Positions 9,776 to 36,106 of a DNA stretch of 64,000 nt are shown here, in pieces (the stretch's first letter is position 1; the number at the start of each line of letters is the position of its first letter). The stretch is from Primulina eburnea (taxonomy: Eukaryota > Streptophyta > Magnoliopsida > Lamiales > Gesneriaceae), in NCBI RefSeq assembly GCF_022965805.1, contig NW_027331381.1, positions 62,001-126,000 on the forward strand. The letters run 5' to 3'. The notes beneath the pieces were generated by a model that saw only the letters and a program-made list of their open reading frames with translations, ran no database searches and was not told the DNA's origin. Both the position numbers and the translations under genes were made by a program.

Positions 9776-9778
9776 ATT

Positions 9779-12700
9779 GAAGTAAACATTTCAATTAACT
9801 CTACTTCTTGGGTATTGGATACCAAATGTTGATCACATCTCTGTAATGTGTTACAGGTGATGGGAAGAAGTAGGAAGCTTAGGGAGGTGTGACCTTCTTG
9901 AGGATGGGCAATGGAGCAAGAGTTGCTGCCAAGACCTTAAGAGATGTTTACTTATTGTTGAACAATAGTTTTAAGTTAATTAAGAGATGTTTTGTTTGTA
10001 CCTTTTTGATGAAAAACATTATTTCCATTTCTATTGTGATAAAGATGGATATTCTTGTTTATTTTGCAAAGGTGTTTGCAACATTTACATGAATGAATGT
10101 TTGATTGGTACTTGAGAACTTGAAAACGATCTCTATAACTTAAAATTAAAAGATATTCCGTTAAATGTCCATTCAAAGGCAGACACCATATGAGATATGG
10201 ATGGGTAAGCCTCCCAAATATTCTTATCTTAGAATATGGGGAGCCCTGCATATGTGAAGCAGGTAGTGGGAGATAAATTGGATAGTTGATCCATTTTATG
10301 TTACTTTGTGGGATATCCAAGGAATTAAGTTGGATATTATTTCTATCATCCCCAAGAAACAAAGGTGTTTGTTTCTAGGAATGCAACCTTTTTGGAAAAG
10401 GGTTTTCTATTGGATAGAAAAAGGGAGATGATAGAACTCGAAGAAGTTCGAGAGACACCCACAATTATAGAACCCACACCCGAAGAGCCAAGAGAGGAGA
10501 TACAAGCTCCTAGCAGATACGAGAAAGTCTCGAGACCACCTATGAGGTATGGTCAGCTTCTTGAAGAGGGCCATGATGAGCCTAACCATGGATGTGATCC
10601 ATGGACCTTCAAGGAAGCATTATCTGATGCCGATTCATCCAAGTGGCTTGAAGCAATGGAATCTGAGATGAATTCCATGCATTCGAACCAAGTGTAGGAT
10701 CTTGTGGATCCACCTGAGGGAACTGTTCCCATAGGGACTTGGGGCGGATGGGAAGGTATTGACCTTCAAGGCGCGATTGGTGGCAAAAGGATGTACTCAA
10801 AGACAAGGAGTTGACTTTGAGGAAACCTTTTCCCAGTCGCAATGTTCAAGTCCATAAGGATTTTGCTAGCCATAGCTGCATGGTATGACTGTGAGATATG
10901 GCAGATGGATGTCAAGACAAACTTTCTTAATGGGGATTTTAAGAAAGTTATTTACATGTCTTAACCTGAAGGGTTTACATCTATCGGAAGTGAGCATATG
11001 GTATGCAAACTTCAGAGATCTATTTATGATCTAAAGCAGGCATCTAGGAGTTGGAACCTCAGATTCGACAGTACAATCAAATAGTTGATTTACTAAGATC
11101 CTGAGGAACCCTTTGTGTATAAGAAGGTCAAGTGGGAGTGTCGGTTCGATTTTAGTGTTGCTTGGGATAGTGCTTGGCCGTGACTTGAGTGCACCCGCGC
11201 TCTTAACTGGAGTGCCCCCGCGGTGTACTGTGCTGTTTTGGAGTTGGAATGCCGTGAGCACACCGCACCCGCGGTGATGTAGAGACCGCCCCTGCGGTAG
11301 AGACCGCACCCGCGCTGCTTGCGTCGCCGCACCGCGCTGTTTGTGTTCCAGAATTTTTGAGAATGCCGTAACTTAGGCGCACCCGCGGTCCTTGTGTTGG
11401 CGCACCCGCGGTGAAGGTATGGGCGAGTTTTTAAGCTACTTTTGGAGTGGTTGGCCATACTTTCCCTTTCTTTTCTCCTCCATTCTCGACTTTTCTCTCC
11501 ATTTCAAGGGTTTTCAGTCATTTCTTTCACTCCCTATCTTCGATTCAAGCGTTTGTTTGGAATTTCGACTTGAGTTCGACGTTCTCCTTGGTGCTAGGAA
11601 GCTTGGGTAAGCTTTTGGTGCGATTCTGTTAAGGTTGTAAATTAAGAGTTATTTAGGTTGGTTGTTTATGTGGATTTATGGATTATTTAGCTTGTAATCT
11701 TGGATATTTAGTTGATATTGGTGTTATTTGTGGATTATTTGTTGTAGGTGGTGATCAAGAGCTAAGTTGAGGTGTTTGTTGTGGTTTGTAAGTGGAAATT
11801 CATTCCTTTTGCTCACATGATTATATATGTATGTGTTTCAAAGAGTTTATTGTGTTATTCCCTTTCATTTGATCCATAGTATGTATTGTTATATGTATTG
11901 GAGGCATTGTATGTCTCATTATTGATTAAAGGGAATACAAAGAGATATATAGAGTTCAAAGTGATTGTTAAAACCAGAGAAGATTTTAAATGTTTTCGGA
12001 TTGATAAATACATAGTCAGAGATTGCATGCATATTAGATGATCATCGCCTATAGGCTTATATCCCTCAGAGTTATCGGTATTTATATCGATTTGGGATAC
12101 GAGCACCCCAGAGCAGAGATACTATTGATATCAATCCCCAGAGCAAAAGAGAATACCATCATATTTTTATGCTATTGCTATGTTTATTGATATTCAGAGT
12201 TTACAGTTCAGAGTTGATGGTATTTATGATTTCAAAGATATGTTTTACAGAGTTATTGTTCATTGTTATATAAGAGTTCCACTTGCTGAGATTTATTCTC
12301 ATTCAGTTATTTTTCATGTGATGCAGATCAGAGTGGTGCTCCGGGACGTTGAACTGTAGATCGGGGTCATATGCATACACCGTTGGAGGGATGATTTGGC
12401 ATGATCATAGGAATGATGTTTGTTTTTGTTATGTCATTTAAATGATCATGTATTTATTTTGTAAAGATATTAAAGAAATGTATTTTGAAACTCCTTCCGT
12501 ATATTTGTGACATTCCTTGTGTTGTATGTTGATGACATTCTACTCATTGAAAATGATGTAGGAATGTTGCAATCAACTAATATATGGTTAGCGAGTAAGT
12601 TCTCGATGCACGACTTGGGTGAAGCATCTTTTGTATTGTGAATACAGATCTATTGAGATAGATCGAGAAGATTGCTTGGTCTCACCCAGTCCACATACAT

Positions 12701-13434
12701 TGATACCATCGTGAAGCCGTTCTCGATGGATGAGTCCAAGGGAGGACACCTACCAATGTGTCATGGCGTGTCCCTATCCAAGTCTGTCTCCCAAGACTGA
12801 TGCAGAGATAGTGGCGATGACACGCATTCCGTATGCTTCGGCAATTGGTAGCATCATGTATGGGATGATATCTACACGTCTTGACGTGGCTTTCGCACTA
12901 AGTGTAGTGAGTAGATATCAATCGAACCCTGGTCTTCCACACTGGAAAGCTGTGAAAGACATCCTCAAGTAGTTGAGAAGGACCAATAAAGTGTTCTTGG
13001 TCTATGGGGTGGAGAACTAAAATTGGAAGGCTATACCGACTCTAGCTTCCAAAGCGATATCGATGACTCGAAGTCAACCTCTGGTTTTGTATTCATGCTC
13101 AATGGTGCTGCAGTCTCTTGGAAGAGTTCCAAGCAAGACAATATTACGGATTCCAGCACAGAGGCCGAATACATTGCTGCATCAGATGCAGCAAGGGAGG
13201 CTGTTTGGATAAGGAATTTCGTCCAAGAGTTGGGCGTCATTCCTAATGGAGTTGCTCCTGTCCCGGTGTTGTGTGACAACACGGGAGCTATAGCTCAAGC
13301 AAAGGAGCCTAGGTCTCATCAGAAATCCAAACTAGTATTGAGAAAGTACCACATCCTCGGAGAGATTGTGGAAAGAGGAGATGTGTCTTTTGACACGGTC
13401 GGCTCCGCCGATAATGTTGATTGATCCACTAGCT
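9779..13434 (+). pseudogene. pol: Copia-I copy 1 pol remnant (protease, RT, RNase H; integrase core missing)
   Basis: Fragments in Copia order but in several frames. A protease remnant lies near 9810-9990, where the active-site motif reads VLDTKC followed by a stop instead of DTG. At about 10140-10390 is the segment that normally follows integrase (PYVKQ-like, then VSRNATFLEKGF). RT starts near 10590 (DPWTFKEALSDADSSKWLEA), with a stop at about 10695. The RT active-site codons for YVDD are at 12525-12536, cut off from the RT front by the insertion at 11141-12504. RNase H spans about 12730-13424, including [19 protein letters not shown]. No GAG-pre-integrase or DDE integrase core can be found between the protease and the post-integrase segment, so it was lost before copies 1 and 2 formed. 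Confidence 0.85.
11141..12504 (+). repeat. Truncated Gypsy-A-type LTR fragment inside Copia-I RT
   Basis: Absent from copy 2, where the RT reads straight across (35100/35101). The fragment aligns to the Gypsy-A LTR from about base 153 (CGATTTTAG) to about 60 bases short of its end. It includes the CGCACCCGCGGT units (11180-11410) and the section ending GAAACTCCTTCC. It is clearly diverged from the Gypsy-A LTRs in this window. Neither end is a TG/CA terminus and no target-site duplication is visible, so this is not a normal solo LTR. Confidence 0.82.
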
Positions 13435-13510
13435 AAGCCTTTACCTGGACCATTATTCGACAAGCATCGCGAATCAATGGGTTAGATGCATAAGGGTAGT
13501 TGGCTCTAGT

Positions 13511-13523
13511 GCAAGTGGGAGAT
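13511..13523 (+). promoter_or_regulatory. Polypurine tract, Copia-I copy 1
   Basis: GCAAGTGGGAGAT directly precedes the TG of the 3' LTR. It would prime plus-strand DNA synthesis. The same sequence is found at 36107-36119 in copy 2. Confidence 0.85.
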
Positions 13524-15679
13524 TGTTAGAGTAGGTGCCCGTCGAGCCAAGTGTTGGCCGAGTGTTCACAATGAAACTCTATGTATAAGCAGTCTTTATT
13601 TTAATAATATTTGAAATTATTATTTTGGCAAATCTTTATCTGTATACCCATGCTAGTTGCATAGATAAAGCCCTTGAATATACAAATAGTAGAAAGAATA
13701 TGAGATGCTCATATGATGAGTATCATGAAACTCATATTTGTAATACTGTATATTCTAAACGGTTCCTAGTCGATTCAGCCGCCACTAAGAAGGATATAGG
13801 CCGCTCGAGTTAGAGACTAGTATCTGCGATGTGAGTACCATGTTTCATTGGTAGGGGACATTGTGATGTCCGAACATGCAGATAGGTGCTCCTTGTAGAG
13901 TGCACTGAACAACCCTCCATAAAAGGACTTTCCAAGTGGTTCTCACTTATCGAGTGGAAAAGTCCTGGTTTATGGTTGTACAGAATTAGTCCTTATGACC
14001 CGGGACAACATTGAGACTCTATGTGCTAGAATTACACTTTGACTTGTTTACCGACTCTCATGGGGTCATCAGGTGGCAAGGTTGGGTGTTCTGTCGAAAC
14101 ACATAGGAGTCGATGCATTGTAGTCGGGGATTCACCGCTTACCTTCGGGTATGGATATCCTATGTGTTATCATGTGTATGTAGGTTGAAATCTCTGGCCA
14201 GAGTATGGTTGTAATTATGAAAGGGGTTTCATAGATTACACCATTGATGCAACTACAACATGACACATAGTATCGATTCATTGACAACTCTCGATAAACC
14301 AATGGTTGTCGAATCGGTCGGGATATATGAGTTGAAGGGACCGTACTGTACGCTAACCATAATTGAATGGTTCTTGCAGGCACTATCATTTGATACCTAG
14401 GGAATCATGTAAGCGATGCTGCTAGGCGTTTAACATGATTGGTTGGGTACTATCAGACTTGAGTTCTGACGTTCTTATTATCAAGGTGTTGATAAATAAG
14501 AATGGAGCAATTGGGGTATGCTCGTATAAGGACATGTTTAGTCCGAATCACATGGTGATGTGAACCCACGGCTAGTTGTATCAATGAACCATTGAGGGCC
14601 ACACAAGTACTAGCTTTCTAGATCCCGTTGAGAAGTAAAAAATAGTTCAATGTGTTGAACGGCTTATAAAGGAGTTTATAAGCGTAAGGAAAATTAGAAG
14701 TATGACTTCTATAATGGAGAAAATAGTTCAAAGTGTTGAACGACTTATAAATGAGTTTATAAGTGTAAGGAAAAAAAATAGAAGTATGACTTCTATGAGA
14801 GAAATGTAAATTTTGATTTATGGAAGTGTTCCTAAATTAAAATTTGGCCAAGTGAATAATGTAATTGAAAATTGTGATTTTCATAAACATTATTATGGAC
14901 TAAATAAATTAATTCAAGTGTTGAATTAATTAAACACTAGTGGACCTAGTAGAGTCCAAATAATTAAATTAATTCAAGTGTTGAATTAATTAAATAATAT
15001 TGAGTCTTGTAGAGCTCAATTAAAATAATTATTTAACTAGTGGGACTTGGGTAAATTCAAGTAATGTTTAATTAGTCTCAAATATGTTTGAGATAATTAA
15101 ATTTAGTCCAAGGTTTTTAATTTGATTAAAAAACCATATTATATAATATGCATGCATGGGAGGTCAAGAGTTGGAGACTACTTTTTGGGATATCAAGGCA
15201 TGGCATGCAAAAAGGTGTTTTTGCTTTTTGCTTTTGGACATCCAAGACTAGTCTTCCTTCCCCATTCTAGCAATGCACTTGGCCGAAACTTCTTGCATAT
15301 TCTCTCCATATTTTTTTTTCCTTTTGTGTTCTTCAATTTGTTGGAGAAAACACACACTTCTCTTTGAAAAATCCTCATGTTTTTCTAGTGCAAAATATGA
15401 GGGGATCTTCCTAGTTAGTGGTGGGCCTAATTTTGAAGGAAAGGAAGGAAAGCTTGTAGATCTTCTTTCATTCAAGAGCTAAGGTTTTTAAATCTTAGTT
15501 GGAGCCATACATCAACCTCAAGAGGTTGATAGGTACACTTTCTTACACACTATGAATGTCATTTTGTGTGTTTTTTGTATTTGTTGCACAAGGAAATGGG
15601 GTGGCCGAAATTTTAAGCTAAAAATTTTAGATTTCAAACTTCCGTTGCGCTTCCGGCCACCGTAACCGGTCCGCTTTCA
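13524..15679 (+). repeat. Copia-I copy 1, 3' LTR
   Basis: 2156 bp, TGTTAGAG...TTTCA, with the same palindrome cassette as the 5' LTR. It abuts the IN364 array at 15680. By eye it differs from the copy 2 3' LTR at about ten positions, more than the two 5' LTRs differ from each other once homopolymer length changes are ignored. Confidence 0.93.
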
Positions 15680-18600
15680 CCTAGGACTATTGTTTCTGGT
15701 CGAGATGTTAAATTCTTGAGTTACTTTTGGAAGGCTTTCTGGGCTAAACTTGGCACAAAATTGTTGTTTTCTACTACTTGTCATCCTCAAAACGGATGGA
15801 CAAACTGAAGTTGTCAATAGAACTTTGGGAACACTTTTGCGTGCTATTCTTAAAAGAACTTGGATTGACATTTCTATGGACTTTATTTTGGGCTTGCCTA
15901 GGACTAAGAAGGGGAGGGATTCTATTTTTTTTGTTGTGGATAGATTCTCTAAGATGACACATTTATAGCTTATCATAAAATCGATGATGCTTCAAACATT
16001 GCCGATTTGTTATTTAGAGAAGTCGCTAGGTTGCATGGCATTCCTAGGACTATTGTTTCTGGTCGCGATGTTAAATTCTTGAGTTACTTTTGGAAGACTT
16101 TATGGGCTAAACTTGTCACAAAATTGTTGTTTTCTACTAGCTTGTCATCCTCGAAACGGATGGACAAACTGAAGTTGTCAATAGAACTTTGGGAACACTT
16201 TTGCGTGCTATTCTTAAAAAGAACTTGGATTGACATTTCTATGGACTTTATTTTGGGTTGCCTAGGACTAAGAAGGGAGGGATTCTATTTTCGTTGTTGT
16301 GGATAGATTCTCTAAGATGGAACATTTTATAGCTTGTCATAAAACCGATGATGCTTCAAACATTGCGGATTTGTTCTTTAGAGAAGTCGCTAGGTTGCAT
16401 GGCATGCCTAGGACTATTGTTTCTGGTCGCGCTGTTAAATTATTGAGTTAATTTTGGAAGACTTTATGGGCTAAAATTGGCACAAAATTGTTGTTTTCTA
16501 CGACTTGTCATCTTCAAACGGATGTACAAACTGAAATTGTCAATAGAACTTTGGGAACACTTTTGCGTGCTATTCTTAAAAAGAACTTGGATTGACATTT
16601 CTATGGACTTTATTTTGGGGTTGCATAGGACTAAGAAGGGGAGGGATTCTATTTTTGTTGTTGTGGATAGATTCTCTAAGATGGCACATTTTATAGCTTG
16701 TCATAAAACCGATGATACTTCAAACATTGTGGATTTGTTCTTTAAAAAAGTCGCTAGGTTGCATGGTATGCCTAGGACTATTTTTTCTGGTTCGATGTTA
16801 AATTATTGAGTTACTTTTGGAATACTTTATGGGCTAAACTTGGCACAAAATTGTTGTTTTCTACTACTTGTCATCCTCAAACGGATGGACAAACTGAAGT
16901 TGTCAATAGAACTTTGGGAACACTTTTGCGTGCTATTCTTAAAAAGAACTTGGATTGACATTTCTATGGACTTTATTTTGGGTTGCCTAGGACTAAGAAG
17001 GGGAGGGATTCTATTTTTGTTGTTGTGGATAGATTCTCTAAGATGGCACATTTTATAGCTTGTCATAAAATCGATGATGCTTCAAACATTGCGGATTTGT
17101 TCTTTAGAGAAGTCGTTAGGTTGCATGGCATGCCTAGGACTATTGTTTCTGGTTCGCGATGTTAAATTCTTGAGTTACTTTTGGAAGACTTTATGGGCTA
17201 AACTTGGCACAAAATTGTTGTTTTATACTACTTGTCATCCTCGAACGGATGGACAAACTGAAGTTGTCAATAGAACTTTGGGAACACTTTGCGTGCTATT
17301 CTTAAAAAGAACTTGGATTGACATTTCTATGGACTTTATTTTGGGGTTGCCTAGGACTAAGAAGGGAGGGATTCTATTTTCGTTGTTGTGGATAGATTCT
17401 CTAAGATGGCACATTTTATAGCTTGTCATAAAACCGATGATGCTTCAAACATTGCGGATTTGTTCTTTAGAGAAGTCGTTAGGTTGCATGGCATGCCTAG
17501 GACTATTGTTTCTGGTCGCGATGTTAAATTCTTGAGTTACTTTGGAAGACTTTATGGGCTAAACTTGGCACAAAATTGTTGTTTTCTACTACTTGTCATC
17601 CTCGAACGGATGGACAAACTGAAGTTGTCAATAGAACTTTGGGAACACTTTTGCGTGCTATTCTTAAAAAGAACTTGGATTGACATTTCTATGGACTTTA
17701 TTTTGGGTTGCCTAGGACTAAGAAGGGGAGGGATTCTATTTTTGTTGTTGTGGATAGATTCTCTAAGATGGCACATTTTATAGCTTGTCATAAAACCGAT
17801 GATGCTTCAAACATTGCGGATTTGTTCTTTAGAGAAGTCGCTTAGGTTGCATGGCATGCCTAGGACTATTGTTTCTGGTCGCGATGTTAAATTCTTGAGT
17901 TACTTTTGGAAGACTTTATGGGCTAAACTTGGCACAAAATTGTTGTTTTCTACTACTTGTCATCCTCAAACGGATGGACAAACTGAAGTTGTCAATAGAA
18001 CTTTGGGAACACTTTTGCGTGCTATTCTTAAAAAGAACTTGGATTGACATTTCTATGGACTTTATTTTGGGGTTGCCTAGGACTAAGAAGGGGAGGGATT
18101 CTATTTTTGTTGTTGTGGATAGATTCTCTAAGATGGCACATTTTATAGCTTGTCATAAAACCGATGATGCTTCAAACATTGCGGATTTGTTCTTTAGAGA
18201 AGTCGTTAGGTTGCATGGCATGCCTAGGACTATTGTTTCTGGTCGCGATGTTAAATTCTTGAGTTACTTTTGGAATACTTTATGGGCTAAACTTGGCACA
18301 AAATTGTTGTTTTCTACTACTTGTCATCCTCAAACGGATGGACAAACTGAAGTTGTCAATAGAACTTTGGGAACACTTTTGCGTGCTATTCTTAAAAAGA
18401 ACTTGGATTGACATTTCTATGGACTTTATTTTGGGGTTGCCTAGGACTAAGAAGGGGAGGGATTCTATTTTTGTTGTTGTGGATAGATTCTCTAAGATGG
18501 CACATTTTATAGCTTGTCATAAAACCGATGATGCTTCAAACATTGCGGATTTGTTCTTTAGAGAAGTCGCTAGGTTGCATGGCATGCCTAGGACTATTGT

Positions 18601-21600
18601 TTCTGGTCGCGATGTTAAATTCTTGAGTTACTTTTGGAAGACTTTATGGGCTAAACTTGGCACAAAATTGTTGTTTTCTACTACTTGTCATCCTCAAACG
18701 GATGGACAAACTGAAGTTGTCAATAGAACTTTGGGAACACTTTTGCGTGCTATTCTTAAAAGAACTTGGATTGACATTTCTATGGACTTTATTTTGGGGT
18801 TGCCTAGGACTAAGAAGGGAGGGATTCTATTTTGTTGTTGTGGATAGATTCTCTAAGATGGCACATTTTATAGCTTGTCATAAAACCGATGATGCTTCAA
18901 ACATTGCGGATTTGTTCTTTAGAGAAGTCGTTAGGTTGCATGGCATGCCTAGGACTATTGTTTCTGGTCGCGATGTTAAATTCTTGAGTTACTTTTGGAA
19001 GACTTTATGGGCTAAACTTGGCACAAAATTGTTGTTTTCTACTACTTGTCATCCTCAACGGATGGACAAACTGAAGTTGTCAATAGAACTTTGGGAACAC
19101 TTTTGCGTGCTATTCTTAAAAAGAACTTGGATTGACATTTCTATGGACTTTATTTTGGGGTTGCCTAGGACTAAGAAGGGGAGGGATTCTATTTTTGTTG
19201 TTGTGGATAGATTCTCTAAGATGGCACATTTTATAGCTTGTCATAAAACCGATGATGCTTCAAACATTGCGGATTTGTTCTTTAGAGAAGTCGTTAGGTT
19301 GCATGGCATGCCTAGGACTATTGTTTCTGGTCGCGATGTTAAATTCTTGAGTTACTTTTGGAAGACTTTATGGGCTAAACTTGGCACAAAATTGTTGTTT
19401 TCTACTACTTGTCATCCTCAAACGGATGGACAAACTGAAGTTGTCAATAGAACTTTGGGAACACTTTTGCGTGCTATTCTTAAAAAGAACTTGGATTGAC
19501 ATTTCTATGGACTTTATTTTGGGGTTGCCTAGGACTAAGAAGGGGAGGGATTCTATTTTTGTTGTTGTGGATAGATTCTCTAAGATGGCACATTTTATAG
19601 CTTGTCATAAAACCGATGATGCTTCAAACATTGCGGATTTGTTCTTTAGAGAAGTCGTTAGGTTGCATGGCATGCCTAGGACTATTGTTTCTGGTCGCGA
19701 TGTTAAATTCTTGAGTTACTTTTGGAAGACTTTATGGGCTAAACTTGGCACAAAATTGTTGTTTTCTACTACTTGTCATCCTCAACGGATGGACAAACTG
19801 AAGTTGTCAATAGAACTTTGGGAACACTTTTGCGTGCTATTCTTAAAAAGAACTTGGATTGACATTTCTATGGACTTTATTTTGGGGTTGCCTAGGACTA
19901 AGAAGGGGAGGGATTCTATTTTTGTTGTTGTGGATAGATTCTCTAAGATGGCACATTTTATAGCTTGTCATAAAACCGATGATGCTTCAAACATTGCGGA
20001 TTTGTTCTTTAGAGAAGTCGTTAGGTTGCATGGCATGCCTAGGACTATTGTTTCTGGTCGCGATGTTAAATTCTTGAGTTACTTTTGGAAGACTTTATGG
20101 GCTAAACTTGGCACAAAATTGTTGTTTTCTACTACTTGTCATCCTCAAACGGATGGACAAACTGAAGTTGTCAATAGAACTTTGGGAACACTTTTGCGTG
20201 CTATTCTTAAAAAGAACTTGGATTGACATTTCTATGGACTTTATTTTGGGGTTGCCTAGGACTAAGAAGGGGAGGGATTCTATTTTTGTTGTTGTGGATA
20301 GATTCTCTAAGATGGCACATTTTATAGCTTGTCATAAAACCGATGATGCTTCAAACATTGCGGATTTGTTCTTTAGAGAAGTCGTTAGGTTGCATGCATG
20401 CCTAGGACTATTGTTTCTGGTCGCGATGTTAAATTCTTGAGTTACTTTTGGAAGACTTTATGGGCTAAACTTGGCACAAAATTGTTGTTTTCTACTACTT
20501 GTCATCCTCGAACGGATGGACAAACTGAAGTTGTCAATAGAACTTTGGGAACACTTTTGCGTGCTATTCTTAAAAAGAACTTGGATTGACATTTCTATGG
20601 ACTTTATTTTGGGGTTGCCTAGGACTAAGAAGGGGAGGGATTCTATTTTTGTTGTTGTGGATAGATTCTCTAAGATGGCACATTTTATAGCTTGTCATAA
20701 AACCGATGATGCTTCAAACATTGCGGATTTGTTCTTTAGAGAAGTCGTTAGGTTGCATGGCATGCCTAGGACTATTGTTTCTGTTCGCGATGTTAAATTC
20801 TTGAGTTACTTTTGGAAGACTTTATGGGCTAAACTTGGCACAAAATTGTTGTTTTCTACTACTTGTCATCCTCAACGGATGGACAAACTGAAGTTGTCAA
20901 TAGAACTTTGGGAACACTTTTGCGTGCTATTCTTAAAAAGAACTTGGATTGACATTTCTATGGACTTTATTTTGGGGTTGCCTAGGACTAAGAAGGGGAG
21001 GGATTCTATTTTTGTTGTTGTGGATAGATTCTCTAAGATGGCACATTTTATAGCTTGTCATAAAACCGATGATGCTTCAAACATTGCGGATTTGTTCTTT
21101 AGAGAAGTCGTTAGGTTGCATGGCATGCCTAGGACTATTGTTTCTGGTCGCGATGTTAAATTCTTGAGTTACTTTTGGAAGACTTTATGGGCTAAACTTG
21201 GCACAAAATTGTTGTTTTCTACTACTTGTCATCCTCGAACGGATGGACAAACTGAAGTTGTCAATAGAACTTTGGGAACACTTTTGCGTGCTATTCTTAA
21301 AAAGAACTTGGATTGACATTTCTATGGACTTTATTTTGGGGTTGCCTAGGACTAAGAAGGGGAGGGATTCTATTTTTGTTGTTGTGGATAGATTCTCTAA
21401 GATGGCACATTTTATAGCTTGTCATAAAACCGATGATGCTTCAAACATTGCGGATTTGTTCTTTAGAGAAGTCGTTAGGTTGCATGGCATGCCTAGGACT
21501 ATTGTTTCTGGTCGCGATGTTAAATTCTTGAGTTACTTTTGGAAGACTTTATGGGCTAAACTTGGCACAAAATTGTTGTTTTCTACTACTTGTCATCCTC

Positions 21601-24600
21601 GAACGGATGGACAAACTGAAGTTGTCAATAGAACTTGGGAACACTTTTGCGTGCTATTCTTAAAAAGAACTTGGATTGACATTTCTATGGACTTTATTTT
21701 GGGGTTGCCTAGGACTAAGAAGGGGAGGGATTCTATTTTTGTTGTTGTGGATAGATTCTCTAAGATGGCACATTTTATAGCTTGTCATAAAACCGATGAT
21801 GCTTCAAACATTGCGGATTTGTTCTTTAGAGAAGTCGTTAGGTTGCATGGCATGCCTAGGACTATTGTTTCTGGTCGCGATGTTAAATTCTTGAGTTACT
21901 TTTGGAAGACTTTATGGGCTAAACTTGGCACAAAATTGTTGTTTTCTACTACTTGTCATCCTCGAACGGATGGACAAACTGAAGTTGTCAATAGAACTTT
22001 GGGAACACTTTTGCGTGCTATTCTTAAAAAGAACTTGGATTGACATTTCTATGGACTTTATTTTGGGGTTGCCTAGGACTAAGAAGGGGAGGGATTCTAT
22101 TTTTGTTGTTGTGGATAGATTCTCTAAGATGGCACATTTTATAGCTTGTCATAAAACCGATGATGCTTCAAACATTGCGGATTTGTTCTTTAGAGAAGTC
22201 GTTAGGTTGCATGGCATGCCTAGGACTATTGTTTCTGGTCGCGATGTTAAATTCTTGAGTTACTTTTGGAAGACTTTATGGGCTAAACTTGGCACAAAAT
22301 TGTTGTTTTCTACTACTTGTCATCCTCAAACGGATGGACAAACTGAAGTTGTCAATAGAACTTTGGGAACACTTTTGCGTGCTATTCTTAAAAAGAACTT
22401 GGATTGACATTTCTATGGACTTTATTTTGGGGTTGCCTAGGACTAAGAAGGGGAGGGATTCTATTTTTGTTGTTGTGGATAGATTCTCTAAGATGGCACA
22501 TTTTATAGCTTGTCATAAAACCGATGATGCTTCAAACATTGCGGATTTGTTCTTTAGAGAAGTCGTTAGGTTGCATGGCATGCCTAGGACTATTGTTTCT
22601 GGTCGCGATGTTAAATTCTTGAGTTACTTTTGGAAGACTTTATGGGCTAAACTTGGCACAAAATTGTTGTTTTCTACTACTTGTCATCCTCGAACGGATG
22701 GACAAACTGAAGTTGTCAATAGAACTTTGGGAACACTTTTGCGTGCTATTCTTAAAAAGAACTTGGATTGACATTTCTATGGACTTTATTTTGGGGTTGC
22801 CTAGGACTAAGAAGGGGAGAGATTCTATTTTTGTTGTTGTGGATAGATTCTCTAAGATGGCACATTTTATAGCTTGTCATAAACCGATGATGCTTCAAAC
22901 ATTGCGGATTTGTTCTTTAGAGAAGTCGTTAGGTTGCATGGCATGCCTAGGACTATTGTTTCTGGTCGCGATGTTAAATTCTTGAGTTACTTTTGGAAGA
23001 CTTTATGGGCTAAACTTGGCACAAAATTGTTGTTTTCTACTACTTGTCATCCTCGAACGGATGGACAAACTGAAGTTGTCAATAGAACTTTGGGAACACT
23101 TTTGCGTGCTATTCTTAAAAAGAACTTGATTGACATTTCTATGGACTTTATTTTGGGGTTGCCTAGGACTAAGAAGGGGAGGGATTCTATTTTTGTTGTT
23201 GTGGATAGATTCTCTAAGATGGCACATTTTATAGCTTGTCATAAAACCGATGATGCTTCAAACATTGCGGATTTGTTCTTTAGAGAAGTCGTTAGGTTGC
23301 ATGGCATGCCTAGGACTATTGTTTCTGGTCGCGATGTTAAATTCTTGAGTTACTTTTGGAAGACTTTATGGGCTAAACTTGGCACAAAATTGTTGTTTTC
23401 TACTACTTGTCATCCTCGAAACGGATGGACAAACTGAAGTTGTCAATAGAACTTTGGGAACACTTTTGCGTGCTATTCTTAAAAAGAACTTGGATTGACA
23501 TTTCTATGGACTTTATTTTGGGGTTGCCTAGGACTAAGAAGGGGAGGGATTCTATTTTTGTTGTTGTGGATAGATTCTCTAAGATGGCACATTTTATAGC
23601 TTGTCATAAAACCGATGATGCTTCAAACATTGCGGATTTGTTCTTTAGAGAAGTCGTTAGGTTGCATGGCATGCCTAGGACTATTGTTTCTGGTCGCGAT
23701 GTTAAATTCTTGAGTTACTTTTGGAAGACTTTATGGGCTAAACTTGGCACAAAATTGTTGTTTTCTACTACTTGTCATCCTCGAACGGATGGACAAACTG
23801 AAGTTGTCAATAGAACTTTGGGAACACTTTTGCGTGCTATTCTTAAAAAGAACTTGGATTGACATTTCTATGGACTTTATTTTGGGGTTGCCTAGGACTA
23901 AGAAGGGGAGGGATTCTATTTTTGTTGTTGTGGATAGATTCTCTAAGATGGCACATTTTATAGCTTGTCATAAAACCGATGATGCTTCAAACATTGCGGA
24001 TTTGTTCTTAGAGAAGTCGTTAGGTTGCATGGCATGCCTAGGACTATTGTATTCTGGTCGCGATGTTAAATTCTTGAGTTACTTTTGGAAGACTTTATGG
24101 GCTAAACTTGGCACAAAATTGTTGTTTTCTACTACTTGTCATCCTCAAACGGATGGACAAACTGAAGTTGTCAATAGAACTTTGGGAACACTTTTGCGTG
24201 CTATTCTTAAAAAGAACTTGGATTGACATTTCTATGGACTTTATTTTGGGGTTGCCTAGGACTAAGAAGGGGAGGGATTCTATTTTTGTTGTTGTGGATA
24301 GATTCTCTAAGATGGCACATTTTATAGCTTGTCATAAAACCGATGATGCTTCAAACATTGCGGATTTGTTCTTTAGAGAAGTCGTTAGGTTGCATGGCAT
24401 GCCTAGGACTATTGTTTCTGGTCGCGATGTTAAATTCTTGAGTTACTTTTGGAAGACTTTATGGCTAAACTTGGCACAAAATTGTTGTTTTCTACTACTT
24501 GTCATCCTCGAACGGATGGACAAACTGAAGTTGTCAATAGAACTTTGGGAACACTTTTGCGTGCTATTCTTAAAAAGAACTTGGATTGACATTTCTATGG

Positions 24601-26665
24601 ACTTTATTTTGGGGTTGCCTAGGACTAAGAAGGGGAGGGATTCTATTTTTGTTGTTGTGGATAGATTCTCTAAGATGGCACATTTTATAGCTTGTCATAA
24701 AACCGATGATGCTTCAAACATTGCGGATTTGTTCTTTAGAGAAGTCGTTAGGTTGCATGGCATGCCTAGGACTATTGTTTCTGGTCGCGATGTTAAATTC
24801 TTGAGTTACTTTTGGAAGACTTTATGGGCTAAACTTGGCACAAAATTGTTGTTTTCTACTACTTGTCATCCTCGAACGGATGGACAAACTGAAGTTGTCA
24901 ATAGAACTTTGGGAACACTTTTGCGTGCTATTCTTAAAAAGAACTTGGATTGACATTTCTATGGACTTTATTTTGGGGTTGCCTAGGACTAAGAAGGGGA
25001 GGGATTCTATTTTTGTTGTTGTGGATAGATTCTCTAAGATGGCACATTTTATAGCTTGTCATAAAACCGATGATGCTTCAAACATTGCGGATTTGTTCTT
25101 TAGAGAAGTCGTTAGGTTGCATGGCATGCCTAGGACTATTGTTTCTGGTCGCGATGTTAAATTCTTGAGTTACTTTTGGAAGACTTTATGGGCTAAACTT
25201 GGCACAAAATTGTTTGTTTTCTACTACTTGTCATCCTCAAACGGATGGACAAACTGAAGTTGTCAATAGAACTTTGGGAACACTTTTGCGTGCTATTCTT
25301 AAAAAGAACTTGGATTGACATTTCTATGGACTTTATTTTGGGGTTGCCTAGGACTAAGAAGGGGAGGGATTCTATTTTTGTTGTTGTGGATAGATTCTCT
25401 AAGATGGCACATTTTATAGCTTGTCATAAAACCGATGATGCTTCAAACATTGCGGATTTGTTCTTTAGAGAAGTCGTTAGGTTGCATGGCATGCCTAGGA
25501 CTATTGTTTCTGGTCGCGATGTTAAATTCTTGAGTTACTTTTGGAAGACTTATGGGCTAAACTTGGCACAAAATTGTTGTTTTCTACTACTTGTCATCCT
25601 CGAACGGATGGACAAACTGAAGTTGTCAATAGAACTTGGGAACACTTTTGCGTGCTATTCTTAAAAAGAACTTGGATTGACATTTCTATGGACTTTATTT
25701 TGGGGGTTGCCTAGGACTAAGAAGGGGAGGGATTCTATTTTTGTTGTTGTGGATAGATTCTCTAAGATGGCACATTTTATAGCTTGTCATAAAACGATGA
25801 TGCTTCAAACATTGCGGATTTGTTCTTTAGAGAAGTCGTTAGGTTGCATGGCATGCCTAGGACTATTGTTTCTGGTCGCGATGTTAAATTCTTGAGTTAC
25901 TTTTGGAATACTTTATGGGCTAAACTTGGCACAAAATTGTTGTTTTCTACTACTTGTCATCCTCGAACGGATGGACAAACTGAAGTTGTCAATAGAACTT
26001 TGGGAACACTTTTGCGTGCTATTCTTAAAAGAACTTGGATTGACATTTCTATGGACTTTATTTTGGGGTTGCCTAGGACTAAGAAGGGGAGGGATTCTAT
26101 TTTGTTGTTGTGGATAGATTCTCTAAGATGGCACATTTTATAGCTTGTCATAAAACCGATGATGCTTCAAACATTGCGGATTTGTTCTTTAGAGAAGTCG
26201 TTAGGTTGCATGGCATGCCTAGGACTATTGTTTCTGGTCGCGATGTTAAATTCTTGAGTTACTTTTGGAAGACTTTATGGGCTAAACTTGGCACAAAATT
26301 GTTGTTTTCTACTACTTGTCATCCTCAAACGGATGGACAAACTGAAGTTGTCAATAGAACTTTGGGAACACTTTTGCGTGCTATTCTTAAAAAGAACTTG
26401 GATTGACATTTCTATGACTTTATTTTGGGGTTGCCTAGGACTAAGAAGGGGAGGATTCTATTTTGTTGTTGTGGATAGATTCTCTAAGATGGCACATTTT
26501 ATAGCTTGTCATAAAACCGATGATGCTTCAAACATGCGGATTTGTTCTTTAGATAAGTCGTTAGGTTGCATGGCATGCCCTAGGACTATTGTTTCTGGTC
26601 GCGATGTTAAATTCTTGAGTTACTTTTGGAAGACTTTATGGGCTAAACTTGGCACAAAATTGATT
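15680..26665 (+). repeat. IN364 satellite-like tandem array (about 30 units of 364 bp)
   Basis: Ten kilobases of head-to-tail copies of one unit. Corresponding points recur at 17929, 18293, 18657, then 21925, 22289, 22653, then 23744 and 24108, a 364-bp step. Each unit is a piece of a Ty3/gypsy integrase catalytic core. It runs from [16 protein letters not shown] through [34 protein letters not shown] and [19 protein letters not shown], then joins the next unit at KKNL/DISM. Since 364 is not a multiple of three, the frame shifts at each junction and a stop ends most units. ORFs of about 280 codons occur only where one base is lost. Interior units are nearly identical; those at 15680-16830 and 26400-26665 are more diverged, as expected at array edges. 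The unit is not a functional gene. Confidence 0.93.
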
Positions 26666-27300
26666 GAGGATGTGAAGGTAGTGGATTCCACTTCAATCTT
26701 GAAGCCAAACTTGTGGATGATTTGAATGTTAATATTGTGTCTCATGCGAGTATTGAGTGTTTTAGCTGTGGAGGGTGAGTTGTTAGATGATGTGCAAGTT
26801 GTTTCTTTTGCTCAACTGTCTACGAATGTAATTTGTATTGATGAATCAATTTGTTATAGTTGAGAGAAAAAGAAAATGAGATGGTCGAAAAAAGAGCGAT
26901 ACAAAGAGTGAGATGGCCATCGATGAAACTAAAGAGTTGTGTGAAAAAGTGGTCAAGCAAACAAAAAAAGAAATTTATGTGTATGGCCCAAAAGAGTGAG
27001 GATGAGCGATTTTTATTTTGAATAAACCACTTCATGTATATCTGTGCAGGTTGGTTTTATTTTATTTTAATGAATTAGCCCGGTTCGATCCCGAGCATTG
27101 TTAAACTCTACTTGCAGGATTGTGGGAAAGGCATGAAATGTATTGATCTTCCTAGCTATCAAGAAAGACAAGATTTGAGGACAAATCTTTTTAAAGAAAG
27201 GGAGTATGATGTGAATCTAGCTAGCCACTATGCGTTCCAAGAACCAATCCGAGAGGACGCGCTTGAAGACGTTAAATGTTGCCATTCATCCAACCAATGA
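26666..27300 (+). pseudogene. Ty3/gypsy element 3' tail next to the array
   Basis: Immediately after the last partial integrase unit the sequence becomes unique. It is A+T-rich with a short open stretch at 27112-27300 containing DLRTNLFKEREYDVN. In my judgement this resembles the C-terminal tail just before the polypurine tract in the plant gypsy families whose integrase matches IN364 (typically DLRSNPFxEGE). If so, this is the end of the donor-type element with the middle missing. 26666-27111 has no other recognisable coding sequence. Confidence 0.45.
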
Positions 27301-27538
27301 AAGTTTGGAAACAAGGCTCGAAGGGTTCGGGTTGCATCACAATCAGTAGAAGCTGACCGGGCTACACGGACCTGTACACGGGGTCCGTGTCTCTACATTC
27401 GAGATTGAGATTTACAGAGCCCACAGCTCACCCGGAGGCCTACACGGGTCCATGCCCTTTACGTTTGGACGAGAATATTTTTACCTTCTTTAGAGTTTAT
27501 TTTGTTAGGAAACTGGATTCTAGTAATCTTTTTGATAT
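27301..27538. other. LTR-like debris before the sequence gap
   Basis: No gene. A perfect inverted repeat ACACGGACC/GGTCCGTGT (27364-27372 and 27382-27390) lies in a stretch rich in ACACGG motifs, which looks like part of a gypsy LTR. The far end is lost in the gap. Confidence 0.4.
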
Positions 27539-27563
27539 NNNNNNNNNNNNNNNNNNNNNNNNN
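27539..27563. other. Assembly gap (25 Ns)
   Basis: Twenty-five N characters. A short fixed-length run like this is usually a scaffold join of unknown true size. The sequence to the right restarts within a Copia-I LTR end that is also present at 3604. Confidence 0.97.
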
Positions 27564-27625
27564 TACATAGAGGTTCATTGTTGAACACTCGGCCAACACT
27601 TGGCTCGATGGGCACTACTCTAACA
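27564..27625 (-). repeat. Copia-I LTR, terminal 62 bp (minus)
   Basis: Reverse complement of the first bases of a Copia-I LTR, matching 3604-3666 with small indels. It ends at the same junction with IN364 as copy 0 does at 3666/3667. Confidence 0.85.
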
Positions 27626-28513
27626 CCAGAATCAATAGTCCTAGGCATGCCACGCAACCTAACGACTTCTCTAAAGAACAAATCCGCAATGTTTGAAGCA
27701 TCATCGGTTTTATGACAAGCTATAAAATGTGCCATCTTAGAGAATCTATCCACAACAACGAAAATAGAATCCCTCCCCTTCTTAGTCTTAGGCAACCCCA
27801 AAATAAAGTCCATTGAAATGTCAATCCAAGTTCTTTTTAAGAATAGCACGCAAAATGTTCCCAAAGTTTTAGTGAAACCTTCAGTTAGTCCATCCGTTTG
27901 AGGATGACAAGTAGTAGAAAACAACAACTTTGTGCCAAGTTTAGCCCATAAAGTATTCCAAAAGTACTCAAGAATTTAACGGGTGACCAGAATCAATAGT
28001 CCAAGGCATGCCACGCACCTAACGACTTCTCTGAAGAACAAATCTGCAATGTTTGAAGCATCATCGGTTTTATGACAAGCTATAAAATGTGCCATCTTAG
28101 AGAATCTATCCACAACAACGAAAATAGAATCCCTCCCCTTCTTAGTCCTAGGTAACCCCAAAATAAAGTCCATAGAAATGTCAATCCAAGTTCTTTTAAG
28201 AATAGCACGCAAAAGTGTTCCAAGTTCTATCGACACTTCAGTGTTGTCCATCCGTGTTGAGGAGACAAGTAGTAGAAAACAACAATTTTGTGCCAAGTTT
28301 AGCCCATAAAGTATGCAAAAGTAACTCAAGAATTTAACATCGCGACCAGAATCAATAGTCCTAAGGCATGCCATGCAACGAACGACTTCTCTAAAGAACA
28401 AAATCCGCAATGTTTGAAGCATCATACGGTTTGTATGACAAGCTATAAATGTGCCATCTTAGAGAATCTATCCACAACAACAAAAATAGAACATTCCCAT
28501 TCTAGTCTAGGCA
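27626..28513 (-). repeat. IN364 minus-oriented fragment, second copy
   Basis: A near copy of 3667-4564 with many one-base insertions and deletions, especially 28180-28513. Minus-strand translation shows the same integrase pieces, with extra frame breaks. It directly precedes the TG of the Gypsy-A 5' LTR. Confidence 0.85.
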
Positions 28514-28926
28514 TGTAATAAGCTCGAGCCGAGGGGGCCCGGTGTAGCGGTACGGTCTAAGCTTTCTTGTTATTTGGGTTATGTGATTAGATGTTTAGAG
28601 TTGTGTTTTGGGCCAAAGTATTATTGATTATTAGTGTCTTGAGGTATTAGTTGTTTGGTTGTTCGTTCAGTGTTTCGGATCGATTTTAGTTGGTTGAGTG
28701 GTGTTCTTTGCCGTGACCATAGTGCACCCGCGGTCGACTGTTCAAGATTTTATGTTTGTAAGCCGTGGCAGGACCGCACCTGCGGTAGTGCAAGGACCGC
28801 ACCCACGGTGATGACCGCACCCGTGGTGATGACCGCACCCACGGTGAGGACCCGCCCCACGGTGATGACCGCACCTGTGGTAGTGCAAGGACCGCACCCG
28901 CGGTGTCTGCAGGACCGCACCCGCGG
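28514..28926 (+). repeat. Gypsy-A 5' LTR, segment 1
   Basis: TGTAATA start, then the same sequence as 62668 onward. The first 50 bases carry several extra bases relative to both 4565 and 62668. From about 28730 it holds a run of GACCGCACC(C/T)(G/A)CGGTGATG-type units, more units than in the 3' LTR. It ends in CGCGG, the target-site duplication of Copia-I copy 2. Confidence 0.88.
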
Positions 28927-31082
28927 TGTTAGAGTAGGTGCCCGTCGAGCCAAGTGTTGGCCGAGTGTTCACAATGAAACTCTATGTATAAGCAGTCTTT
29001 ATTTTAATAATATTTGAAATTTATTATTTTGGCAAATCTTTATCTGTATACCCATGCTAGTTGCATAGATAAAGCCCTTGAATATACAAATAGTAGAAAG
29101 AATATGAGATGCTCATATGATGAGTATCATGAAACTCATATTTGTAATACTGTATATTCTAAACGGTTCCTAGTCGATTCAGCCGCCACTAAGAAGGATA
29201 TAGGCCGCTCGAGTTAGAGACTAGTATCTGCGATGTGAGTACCATGTTTCATTGGTAGGGGACATTGTGATGTCCGAACATGCAGATAGGTGCTCCTTGT
29301 AGAGTGCACTGAACAACCCTCCATAAAAGGACTTTCCAAGTGGTTCTCACTTATCGAGTGGAAAAGTCCTGGTTTATGGTTGTACAGAATTAGTCCTTAT
29401 GACCCGGGACAACATTGAGACTCTATGTGCTAGAATTACACTTTGACTTGTTTACCGACTCTCATGGGGTCATCAGGTGGCAAGGTTGGGTGTTCTGTCG
29501 AAACACATAGGAGTCGATGCATTGTAGTCGGGGATTCACCGCTTACCTTCAGGGTATGGATATCCTATGTGTTATCATGTGTATGTAGGTTGAAATCTCT
29601 GGCCAGAGTATGGTTGTAATTATGAAAGGGGTTTCATAGATTACACCATTGATGCAACTACAACATGACACATAGTATCGATTCATTGACAACTCTCGAT
29701 AAACCAATGGTTGTCGAATCGGTCGGGATATATGAGTTGAAGGGACCGTACTGTACGCTAACCATAATTGAATGGTTCTTGCAGGCACTATCATTTGATA
29801 CCTAGGGAATCATGTAAGCGATGCTGCTAGGCGTTTAACATGATTGGTTGGGTACTATCAGACTTGAGTTCTGACGTTCTTATTATCAAGGTGTTGATAA
29901 ATAAGAATGGAGCAATTGGGGTATGCTCGTATAAGGACATGTTTAGTCCGAATCACATGGTGATGTGAACCCACGGCTAGTTGTATCAATGAACCATTGA
30001 GGGCCACACAAGTACTAGCTTTCTAGATTCCGTTGAGAAGTAAAAAATAGTTCAATGTGTTGAACGGCTTATAAAGGAGTTTATAAGCGTAAGGAAAATT
30101 AGAAGTATGACTTCTATAATGGAGAAAATAGTTCAAAGTGTTGAACGACTTATAAATGAGTTTATAAGTGTAAGAAAAAAAATAGAAGTATGACTTCTAT
30201 GAGAGAAATGTAAATTTTGATTTATGGAAGTGTTCCTAAATTAAAATTTGGCCAAGTGAATAATGTAATTGAAAATTGTGATTTTCATAAACATTATTAT
30301 GGACTAAATAAATTAATTCAAGTGTTGAATTAATTAAACACTAGTGGACCTAGTAGAGTCCAAATAATTAAATTAATTCAAGTGTTGAATTAATTAAATA
30401 ATATTGAGTCTTGTAGAGCTCAATTAAAATAATTATTTAACTAGTGGGACTTGGGTAAATTCAAGTAATGTTTAATTAGTCTCAAATATGTTTGAGATAA
30501 TTAAATTTAGTCCAAGGTTTTTAATTTGATTAAAAACCATATTATATAATATGCATGCATGGGAGGTCAAGAGTTGGAGACTAATTTTTGGGATATCAAG
30601 GCATGGCATGCAAAAAGGTGTTTTTGCTTTTTGCTTTTTGGACATCCAAGACTAGTCTTCCTTCCCCATTCTAGCAATGCACTTGGCCGAAACTTCTTGC
30701 ATATTCTCTCCATATTTTTTTTTCCTTTTGTGTTCTTCAATTTGTTGGAGAAAACACACACTTCTCTTTGAAAAATCCTCATGTTTTTCTAGTGCAAAAT
30801 ATGAGGGGATCTACCTAGTTAGTGGTGGGCCTAATTTTGAAGGAAAGGAAGGAAAGCTTGTAGATCTTCTTTCATTCAAGAGCTAAGGTTTTTAAATCTT
30901 AGTTGGAGACATACATCAACCTCAAGAGGTTGATAGGTACACTTTCTTACACCCTATGAATGTCATTTTGTGTGTTTTTGTATTTGTTGCACAAGGAAAT
31001 GGGGTGGCCGAAATTTTAAGCTAAAAATTTTAGATTTCAAACTTCCGTTGCGCTTCCGGCCACCGTAATCGGTCCGCTTTCA
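28927..31082 (+). repeat. Copia-I copy 2, 5' LTR
   Basis: 2156 bp, TGTTAGAG...TTTCA. It is almost the same as the copy 1 5' LTR; differences are mostly lengths of A or T runs. It carries the palindrome cassette and the paired 25-bp inverted repeats. Confidence 0.94.
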
Positions 31083-31084
31083 AG

Positions 31085-31096
31085 TGGTATCAGAGC
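31085..31096 (+). promoter_or_regulatory. Primer-binding site, Copia-I copy 2
   Basis: TGGTATCAGAGC two bases after the LTR end, identical to copy 1. Confidence 0.93.
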
Positions 31097-32873
31097 TATG
31101 GTTACGTTTTTGTGTAGCAAATACAATATATATTATGTTGAGATCGATTTCTAACCGCATGAGTGTGTTTTTGCAACAAATCGAGGGCCGTTTTTGGGGA
31201 AAAATTCGGGCAGCAAGTTGCTGCCCGTGTCGGGCAGCTCGGGCTGCCCGTTTCGGGCAGCTAGGGCAGCCCCCCGAACAGCCCCATCATTTTAAATAAA
31301 AAAAAATTTTTTGGTAAGTTGGCCGGAATCCGGCGACGGAGCTCCGGCGACGGCGATGACGACTAGGGTTTCCAAAAGTGTTTGGATTATCAAAGTGTCA
31401 TGGGCCTTGAGTTGTTGGGCCATTGGATGGCTAACATGTTTGTGAATTTTAAATGGGCCGAAAATGTTTTTGGTGAAAAATGATTTTTGGGCCCTTAAGT
31501 TTAAAATTACAAAAGTTGCAAATATTTTCTCATGAAATAAATAATTTAAGTTGGACTTTGATTATTTATAGTAAATTGTGATTTACAAGAAATTCGGTTA
31601 TAAATAAATTAATTTGAAAGTAGACAAAGGTGTTTGTATACTTTGTTAATTTAGTTTATAATCGTGACGGTTAGTGATTGGATCAAGATATATAATATTG
31701 GATCAATTAATTATTGTGATAATTAATTGATGGTGTATGATATGTGATATTATGCATGAAGGATGATCAAAAGCCCAAGCCCAATTTGCTAGGTGTATGC
31801 TAGGATATTTTGTGTTGAATGATTGTAATAATTATCAATTTATCAAGTGGGCTTGGTTTATGGCCCGTTCCCACCCCATGAGATGTATCCCTATTTGCCA
31901 TGGATATTTATTTGAAAATATTAGTATAGTGGATGATCAAGATTGGAAGATGGTGGCCATGATGATTATGAAGATCGAAGACATGTAAATATTGGAAGCT
32001 TATGTAAATGTTGCATTTGCATCCCGTGCATTTACCCTAGGATTGGACCTAGGTCCGTGTTTAGCTCACACGGACCGTTAGTATTGGGGCGATTGATCAT
32101 CCTTGTTTGTTTACTGTTTATAATATATGCATGATATGTTACAAATAATGAGTATGTGCGTTATTATTATGATAATAACAAAGTTGCATGAATCCGGCAA
32201 ACATACGATCAAACATGGCGAGCTTTTAAAATAAAATTAATGATGAGACCTTTCAAAATTAAAATCCCTCATTTTGAATAAGATTCAAAATTAATATCAA
32301 GCCCGAAAAGGGGAATTATAAATTTGTTTATAATTTCCTTGTCTTCCATCGACAATGGGTGCATGATGAACGCTACCCGTACTCGGGGCTCGGCTCATAT
32401 TATTGGGGGAGCCCTGGGTGCCGGAAAGCTGTGACATCTATTGACATGGTGATGTGAACTACGTGGAACTCCCATGATTTCGGCTCATATTATTCAGGGA
32501 ACTCATGGCGACCGTCCATTAAGGTTCAACATCGATGGGTTAGGCTTGACACGTAAAGATGAACGACGTCATATTATTGGGTCCTAATCAAACGTGAGAC
32601 AAAAGTTTACGTAGAGGGTTGCATTGTGATGCAATTGGAAACTACCTTTTAGGAATTGTGATTGGCTGATATTATTCGGGATCATAATTCGCTAATTGGA
32701 CCTTACGTACCTACTGAGGAAAGGGGTTTCCCGTTTCACTAGAGGGTAGTGAAAGATGTCAAAACAGTGGGAGTAAATATTTATGAAGTAAAAGTCCATA
32801 CTTTATATCTTACCAAATATATTAAATAGTCATCAACATTTATCTGTTTTACTTTTCAGTACAAATTTTGACA
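31097..32873 (+). other. Copia-I copy 2 leader, untranslated
   Basis: Near-identical to 7137-8914. The three G+C-rich stem-loops are at 31207-31227, 31231-31250 and 31254-31274, followed by the four CATATTATT-type motifs before gag. No credible coding sequence is present. Confidence 0.8.
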
Positions 32874-33734
32874 ATGTCTTCGATTCGCAATCCGATATCT
32901 GCAATACTCGACAAACACATGTTAACCGGACCTAATTACCTCACTTGGCTAAGAAACCTAAAAATAGTCTTGAATTCGGAAAGGGTAGCATATACACTGA
33001 CTGAGTCGCCCCCTGTTGAGGCTCCGACTCACTGCAATCCTGAGGAATTGCAGGCTTACAAGGAATGGTGTGACCATGACTTGATAGCCAGGTGTTATAT
33101 GCTGACTTCTATGAATGATGAGCTGCAGAGGCGTTTTGAGGGTGCAAAGAGTGCTGCTGACATTCATTTGCATCTCAAAGAGCTCTTTGGTTAGCAAACA
33201 CGACCACTAAGGCATGCTACCGTCAAGGAGCTGATCACTTTGCGCATGCGAGATGGGGCCTCGGTCCATGAGCATGGCCTAAAGGTGATCGGGCTCGTGG
33301 ACAAGCTCGTTGGCATGGATCTGATCTTGCCTTCGGAGTTGACCACCGACGTGTTGCTGTTATCGCTGCCTAGCTCATTTGATCCTTTTGTGGTGAACTT
33401 CAACATGAACAAAATGGAACCGACCCTTGAGGAGTTGGTGAACATGCTTGTTACGTTTGAATCCACCATCAAGAAAGAGAAGTTGGTCCTTTATGTGGGT
33501 TCTTCATCTGGTACGAAGATTGATCCACATGGGAATGGAAAGAAGCGTTCTTTCCAACATCCCAAGAAGAACGTGCCCTCGTTGAGGCAATCTCCGAATC
33601 CCGTTGAGGCAGCCAGACCAGTTAAGGCTGACAAGACTGATGATGTATGTCATCACTGCAAGAAGCCTGGACATTGGAGGCGTAATTGCAAAGAATATCT
33701 TGCCCAGAAAAGTTCTGGAAATGGTATGTTCTAA
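32874..33734 (+). pseudogene. gag: Copia-I copy 2 gag, interrupted by a stop
   Basis: Same 286-codon Gag as copy 1, but a TAG stop replaces a GAG codon at about 33192, after roughly 106 codons. Downstream the frame is open again to 33734 and still encodes the CX2CX4HX4C zinc knuckle. Translation would give a truncated product without the RNA-binding knuckle. Confidence 0.88.
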
Positions 33735-33737
33735 ATT

Positions 33738-36030: not shown

Positions 36031-36106
36031 AAGCCTTTACCTGGACCATTATTCGACAAGCATCGCGAATCAATGGGTTAGATGCATAAGGGTAGTTGGC
36101 TCTAGT

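Follow-up and report, generated by a model that had tools for sequence, protein, structure and literature searches.

How a new satellite DNA comes into being is a long-standing question, and the ancestral sequence is often gone or is itself a repeat. The question is raised by a stretch of 64,000 nucleotides from Primulina eburnea (contig NW_027331381.1, positions 62,001 to 126,000; G000:C851:62001-126000 in our numbering), hereafter the window, which belongs to an assembly of 812,487,562 bases with 18 large contigs, C1–C18, of 29.6–65.8 Mb. On the forward strand of the window, positions 15680–26662 are occupied by a head-to-tail array of a 364-bp unit whose translation matches the catalytic core of a Ty3/gypsy integrase. 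It may be asked whether this array is a true satellite, how the unit was cut out of a gene, and whether the gene can still be found. Judged by its sequence, the array is very probably a piece of a major satellite family, which was derived from the integrase core of a Ty3/gypsy retrotransposon and amplified genome-wide.

Tandem Repeats Finder assigns to the array a period of 364, 30.2 copies, 98% matches and a score of 21267, and cutting at the unit anchor, followed by alignment, gives 30 unit starts and 29 whole units, in good agreement with the roughly 30 head-to-tail copies of 364 bp given in the original prediction for this DNA. The lengths of the whole units (n = 29) range over 361–365 bp, with 364 bp in 11, 363 bp in 10, 362 bp in 4, 365 bp in 3 and 361 bp in 1. 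The 17 units from m10 to m26 carry 0–2 substitutions each relative to the consensus; m10 (19130–19493, forward strand) is identical to it and typical of the array, with its integrase reading frame from W to NL at 19128–19493 and the next head-to-tail junction at 19493/19494. At the left edge, m01, m02 and m03 carry 10, 11 and 11 substitutions, respectively, and the partial unit m00 carries 7 (a misaligned junction accounts for 4); at the right edge, m28 carries 6 (4 being a misaligned junction), m29 carries 0, and the partial m30 carries 6 with 5 gaps. A homogeneous interior and more diverged edges had been predicted, which is true of the interior and the left edge, while the divergence of the right edge is weak.

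The unit matches the Pfam profile rve with E = 6.8e-15 over profile positions 9–102 of 102, and residues 1–121 of its 122 align with residues 1169–1289 of the Ty3 Gag-Pol chain 7q5b with E = 3.6e-32. The predicted identity as an integrase core is upheld by both comparisons; the predicted limits, DISMDF to LLRAIL, are slightly narrower than the true ones, since the unit protein extends from the W of W(I)DISMDF to KKNL. The length of the unit can be written as 364 = 3 × 121 + 1, that is, 121 codons and one base, and because it is not a multiple of three, the integrase frame shifts at each head-to-tail junction.

The abundance of the unit was assessed over the whole assembly by counting a 37-bp pattern that spans the head-to-tail junction, allowing up to 2 mismatches, with the reversed pattern as control. 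The pattern was matched at 36,782 forward and 40,796 reverse sites, 77,578 in total, and the control at 0; by arithmetic, 77,578 junctions of 364 bp amount to 28.2 Mb, or 3.5% of the 812-Mb assembly. A DNA search of the assembly with one unit returned no match, but that search skips very common words, and rarity of the unit is contradicted by the junction count. Outside C851, the starts of 10 contigs were sampled, of which C100, C600, C800 and C852 contained arrays and C1, C2, C200, C400, C850 and C1200 did not; C600 consists of array over its whole 6.1 kb, and the 10 kb examined of C800 are likewise all array, with 28 unit starts. C851 as a whole (267.5 kb) contains 6 satellite pieces with a total of about 20.9 kb, and those outside the window were located by sequence comparison at L006 7045–7870, L008 4914–6239 and L010 998–6969; a match of 57 bp (79%) in L003 was excluded. 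Three of the six pieces share one junction and hence probably result from one event.

A consensus of 125 whole units from 7 arrays, for which one 1089-bp interval of L025 falling outside 340–390 bp was dropped, is identical to the 364-bp consensus of the window. Within arrays, the pairwise substitution distance averages 1.0% in A0, 1.0% in L028, 0.8% in L029 and 1.2% in L031, and it reaches 5.2% in L025, 5.5% in L008 (3 units) and 6.8% in L010; a range from 0.8% to 6.8% indicates that the arrays differ in age. Homogenization is local, as seen in the distances of 0.8–1.2% in 4 of the 7 arrays and in the single variant that is present throughout C1 31.594–31.621 Mb, where matches are mostly spaced by about 362 bp or multiples of it. 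Long head-to-tail arrays, high copy number and local homogenization, the traits by which satellite DNA is defined, are all found here. That the array is satellite DNA, as originally proposed, is thus borne out by the junction count, the all-array stretches of C600 and C800 and the array-specific variants, and the same evidence supports the proposal that unequal exchange homogenized it.

The integrase gene can also be followed beyond both ends of the unit. In database relatives, K follows NL in 93 of the 110 rows that have a residue there, and P precedes W in most rows among the matches listed. The 3' continuation motif A-I-L-K-K-N-L-K-x-W occurs at 197 + 210 = 407 sites genome-wide (control 0). 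Among the 20 parental 3' matches listed, the place of AACTTG in the unit is taken by AACTTA in 18, AACTTG in 1 and AATTTA in 1, and 11 of the 20 are identical to the unit in the 18 bases that precede the break. The 5' motif P-W-x-D-I-S-M-D-F occurs at 247 + 247 = 494 sites, some of which lie within satellite clusters (e.g., C1 31.56 Mb). What counts as evidence for the parent is confined to the pairing of the two motifs, with the 5' site 300–420 bp upstream on the same strand, on C1, C2 and C3 up to 42.9 Mb: a 5' partner is present for 47 of 66 3' sites, with a spacing of 348 bp in 35, 347 bp in 9, and 346, 379 and 330 bp in one each. Since 348 bp is the spacing that arithmetic predicts for an uninterrupted in-frame gene, the unit represents a contiguous in-frame stretch of the integrase gene. 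By these paired motifs, the parent Ty3/gypsy family survives in the genome as an identifiable source element. This parent may be akin to CRM elements, to judge by the look of its integrase and of the flank of the array. Two candidates for the parent were rejected. The match at C5:24061855 with CCTTGG had been taken as a parental gene, and the sequence of L054 showed it to be a gap-rich satellite stretch, so the 30 exact matches of that CCTTGG pattern are not a parent count; the right flank of the main array (26663–27538), taken as a route to the parental integrase, led in L053 to a copy in which a zinc-knuckle-like motif is joined directly and the integrase region is missing.

Unit length, one shared junction and the expected spacing in the parent together establish the head-to-tail closure of an integrase stretch. 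In the proposed course of events, a coding stretch of 363 bp (121 codons that begin at the W of WIDISMDF and end at the N of ILKKN) and one additional base would have been closed head to tail once, and this closure, which shifts the frame by one base per unit, may have used about 1–3 bp of shared sequence (T or CTT), the exact size depending on the parental base before TGG. The closed unit would then have been amplified to the present number of recognizable junctions and homogenized within individual arrays through unequal exchange or conversion, and perhaps seeded by small DNA circles, a mode that we infer. Elements with long terminal repeats (LTRs) would subsequently have cut the arrays, as is seen in C851.

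On C1 (65.8 Mb), the exact junction matches listed lie at 31.559–31.609 Mb and 35.004–35.017 Mb, with one at 59.86 Mb, and the variant pattern matches at 31.57–31.62, 32.01–32.70 and 35.005–35.013 Mb; on C2 (48.0 Mb), the matches listed lie at 15.90–15.94, 21.47–21.49, 23.18, 24.34 and 25.22–25.23 Mb. Nearly all listed copies on C1 (31.56–35.02 Mb) and C2 (15.90–25.23 Mb) are therefore mid-chromosome, where a pericentromeric or centromeric satellite would be expected to lie, and the suggestion that the array might be pericentromeric gains support from these places. The parental 3' sites also centre near the satellite regions, with medians of 34.7 Mb on C1, 25.2 Mb on C2 and 31.5 Mb on C3. The role of the satellite is likely structural, as pericentromeric or centromeric satellite chromatin with about two nucleosome lengths per unit. 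As a separate observation, satellite matches in C1:35004299-35017388 are repeatedly 2465 bp apart, suggesting a larger tandem unit.

Several points weigh against a mid-chromosomal, genome-wide satellite with a surviving parent. The junction and variant maps rest on the matches listed, which cover C1 and part of C2, and C1 accounts for only 86 of the 5,218 exact variant-pattern matches genome-wide, so much of the satellite must lie at places outside these listings. Isolated matches occur on C1 at 14.04 Mb and 59.86 Mb; a satellite array, confirmed by sequence, lies at 24.06 Mb on C5, which has two more matches, satellite or parent, at 9.60 and 33.81 Mb. The satellite copy numbers, including the 77,578 junctions, are figures of an assembly in which near-duplicate stretches exist, and 19 of the 66 parental 3' sites have no upstream partner at zero mismatches.

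Among other explanations of the array, the one that survives best, though improbable, is an internal tandem repeat of a transposing element, in which the integrase core was duplicated within one family that then spread short arrays. This would accord with the right flank of the main array (26663–27538, forward strand), which corresponds to the 3' part of a dispersed element with 2382 candidate places, of which 40 were scored; the flank sequence recurs at 97% identity at C2:15929380, near the C2 array at 15.90–15.94 Mb, and at 98% at C1129:21670. Moreover, the passages of PMC7004042 on Lathyrus document a route in which short in-element arrays later expand into satellites. It is the array edges that argue against such an origin. 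The remainder of the integrase gene follows at 0 of the 12 edges in C851 (duplicates included), and 9 of the 12 adjoin the terminal bases of E-type (copia) or G-type (gypsy) LTRs, which fits insertions breaking arrays; of the remaining 3, the one at 26662 borders the dispersed element, that at L010 6969 lies against the interior of an E-type LTR, and the third is at L006 7870. The 16 edges of 8 satellite pieces are spread over 13 different positions in the unit, those of L025 and L031 being limits of similarity. The single upstream stretch of the dispersed element that was examined, L053 on C11, has no array; a CX2CX4HX4C zinc-knuckle-like motif is joined directly to the 3' part, and the element looks non-autonomous, as the L053 copy is without polymerase and integrase there. 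It may resemble the non-autonomous elements of the CRM group. Non-autonomous CRM elements have been described in hop, according to passages of PMC12371157.

A smaller chance still is left to an assembly artefact, in which the 11-kb array would be the product of inflating a small number of tandem copies or of joining noisy long reads repeatedly. The region does give cause for suspicion. A run of 25 N (27539–27563) marks a contig join between the right flank of the array and a second copy of the E region, and 3605–15679 and 27564–38275 are near-identical except for 1364 bp extra in the first. Their differences are clustered beside the gap, with 38 substitutions and 18 gaps in the first 1.36 kb of the second copy, directly after the 25 N, whereas 4019 internal bases differ by 3 substitutions and 4 gaps. 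The pattern suggests a false duplication, or contigs whose overlap was left unmerged. The copia-type LTR element E1 (4967–15679, forward strand; LTRs of 2156 bp at 4967–7122 and 13524–15679), whose 3' LTR end adjoins the main array, has mismatched flanks, CGCGG at the 5' side and CCTAG at the 3' side, and forms no target duplication, although its near-identical twin E2 (28927–38275, forward strand) has a perfect 5-bp one, CGCGG; the join at 15679/15680 may be a misjoin in the LTR or a real recombination. In addition, many of the differences in unit length are single-base gaps, of which the C5 array is full. An inflated local array, however, does not account for 77,578 junction copies across the assembly, for C600 and 10 kb of C800 being array throughout, or for other arrays carrying their own variants, the 6.8% divergence of L010 consisting mostly of substitutions. 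Independent arrays with different variants indicate that the satellite itself is not an assembly product, while inflation at a single locus is possible. The length of the main array is uncertain, the local assembly being suspect; the existence of the satellite is unaffected. It was also observed that C851 53394–57870 (L006 3394–7870) repeats window positions 1–4491 at 99%, with the same LTR–satellite junction.

A selected protein function, with arrays maintained for the integrase fragment that they encode (acting, for instance, as a dominant negative), can be practically dismissed: one unit does retain a stop-free integrase frame of 122 codons, and open frames called mechanically in the main array span more than one unit in shifted frames and reach 291 aa, but the unit length is not divisible by 3, a stop stands immediately past the junction in the integrase frame, the substitutions in L010, the oldest array, are distributed over the codon positions as 58/79/79 and hence give no sign of protein constraint after amplification, and the residue aligned with a Ty3 aspartate, Asp in 109 of 120 aligned database relatives, is Gly in 110 of 125 satellite units and Asp in 13. 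We take this Ty3 aspartate to be the second catalytic aspartate of integrase. Asp at this position is found in 6 of 15 units of L010 and in 0 of 29 units of A0, and, given its concentration in the old array, the Asp-to-Gly change most likely post-dates the birth of the satellite, through which it then spread.

The reading of a genome-wide satellite born from an integrase core is also accompanied by smaller pieces in the window, which the original prediction did not mention. On the minus strand, Tandem Repeats Finder and sequence comparison reveal 2.5 units at 3666–4563, with the start of a copia-type LTR at 3666 and that of a gypsy-type LTR at 4563, and a duplicate of this piece, also of 2.5 units and with the same two edges, at 27625–28513. 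In L008 (4149–7006), a satellite piece of 3.6 units lies between two opposite-oriented copies of one gypsy-type LTR, whose 3' ends face the piece.

The remainder of the window consists of nested LTR elements. The copia-type E and the gypsy-type G (LTR beginning TGTAATAGCC) are accompanied by a further copia element, which has both gag and pol frames, and by an element whose gag frame lies on the minus strand. The 1364 bp present in E1 and not in E2 (11141–12504) resemble the gypsy-type LTR at 62818–63224, 38285–38754 and 55572–56282. GC-rich minisatellites of 18–23 bp (GACCGCACCCGCGGTG-like) occur in G-type LTR sequence at 4835–4968, 28795–28928 and 62937–63001, and E2 is inserted in one of them. 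Between the copia pol frame and the 3' LTR (48612–49757), an open frame of 442 aa (46973–48301) matches Pfam Transposase_32 (PF20167) and is possibly a captured or extra element gene. Elsewhere in the assembly, the starts of C1, C2 and C400 (L023, L024 and L027) contain related, putative LINE (long interspersed nuclear element)-like polyprotein frames, of 1328 aa in C2 and 1365 aa in C400, which suggests LINE accumulation at contig ends; C850 is exactly 100,000 bp long, and the G+C content over its first 10 kb is 26%, much lower than in the other stretches examined.

Satellites derived from retrotransposons are an accepted kind (passages of PMC3648361 and PMC7004042). In the usual form of this kind, the unit lies in a non-coding LTR or 3' untranslated region (UTR), whereas here it is the catalytic core of the integrase. 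The cited passages of PMC3648361 describe CRM1TR and CRM4TR of maize, which, like the 364-bp satellite, are homogenized tandem repeats taken wholly from a Ty3/gypsy element, theirs being centromeric, and which have been proposed as a path to new centromeric satellites; they differ in being derived from the LTR and untranslated region, with a CRM4TR unit of about 1370 nt, and in being restricted to two loci (CRM1TR) and one locus (CRM4TR), compared with about 3.5% of the assembly for the integrase-core satellite. A 250-bp centromeric repeat of wheat and rye, cited in the same source, is likewise related to a coding part of the CR family, the gag gene of Cereba, but with 53% amino-acid similarity, whereas the present satellite is derived from integrase and its parent family is present. 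The statement made beforehand that plant satellites are usually non-coding in origin is accordingly fair but not absolute (PMC3648361). Satellites of Lathyrus sativus, as described in passages of PMC7004042, were also expanded from retrotransposon sequence, that of Ogre, but their source was pre-existing short tandem repeats in the 3' UTR, unlike the coding source here. The potato centromeric satellites and Sobo, as cited in PMC3648361, are retrotransposon-related and form large arrays at centromeres or pericentromeres; they differ in their units of 979 bp to 5.4 kb, that of Sobo being 4.7 kb with LTR similarity. No satellite derived from an integrase core was found in the open PMC literature (titles, beginnings of abstracts and passages), a search that leaves subscription journals mostly outside and is no proof of absence. 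The present satellite is distinguished by its derivation from the catalytic core of integrase, by the survival of its parent family and by its abundance.

With an ancestor present in hundreds of copies, a well-aligned protein domain and one clean junction, the birth of this satellite becomes readable base by base; the arrays can be ordered by age, and the direction of change can be read from the gene. A dominant satellite, the finding suggests, can be built from coding sequence as readily as from non-coding sequence. A further possibility, which we hold to be tentative and rather unlikely, is that the 364-bp unit is the functional centromere repeat, probably taken from the integrase core of a centromere-targeting chromovirus, captured once, turned into a repeat of two nucleosome lengths, and now the dominant CENH3-bearing DNA of most chromosomes. 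If this were true, the centromere DNA of this species would be the fossil of an enzyme that aims elements at centromeres.

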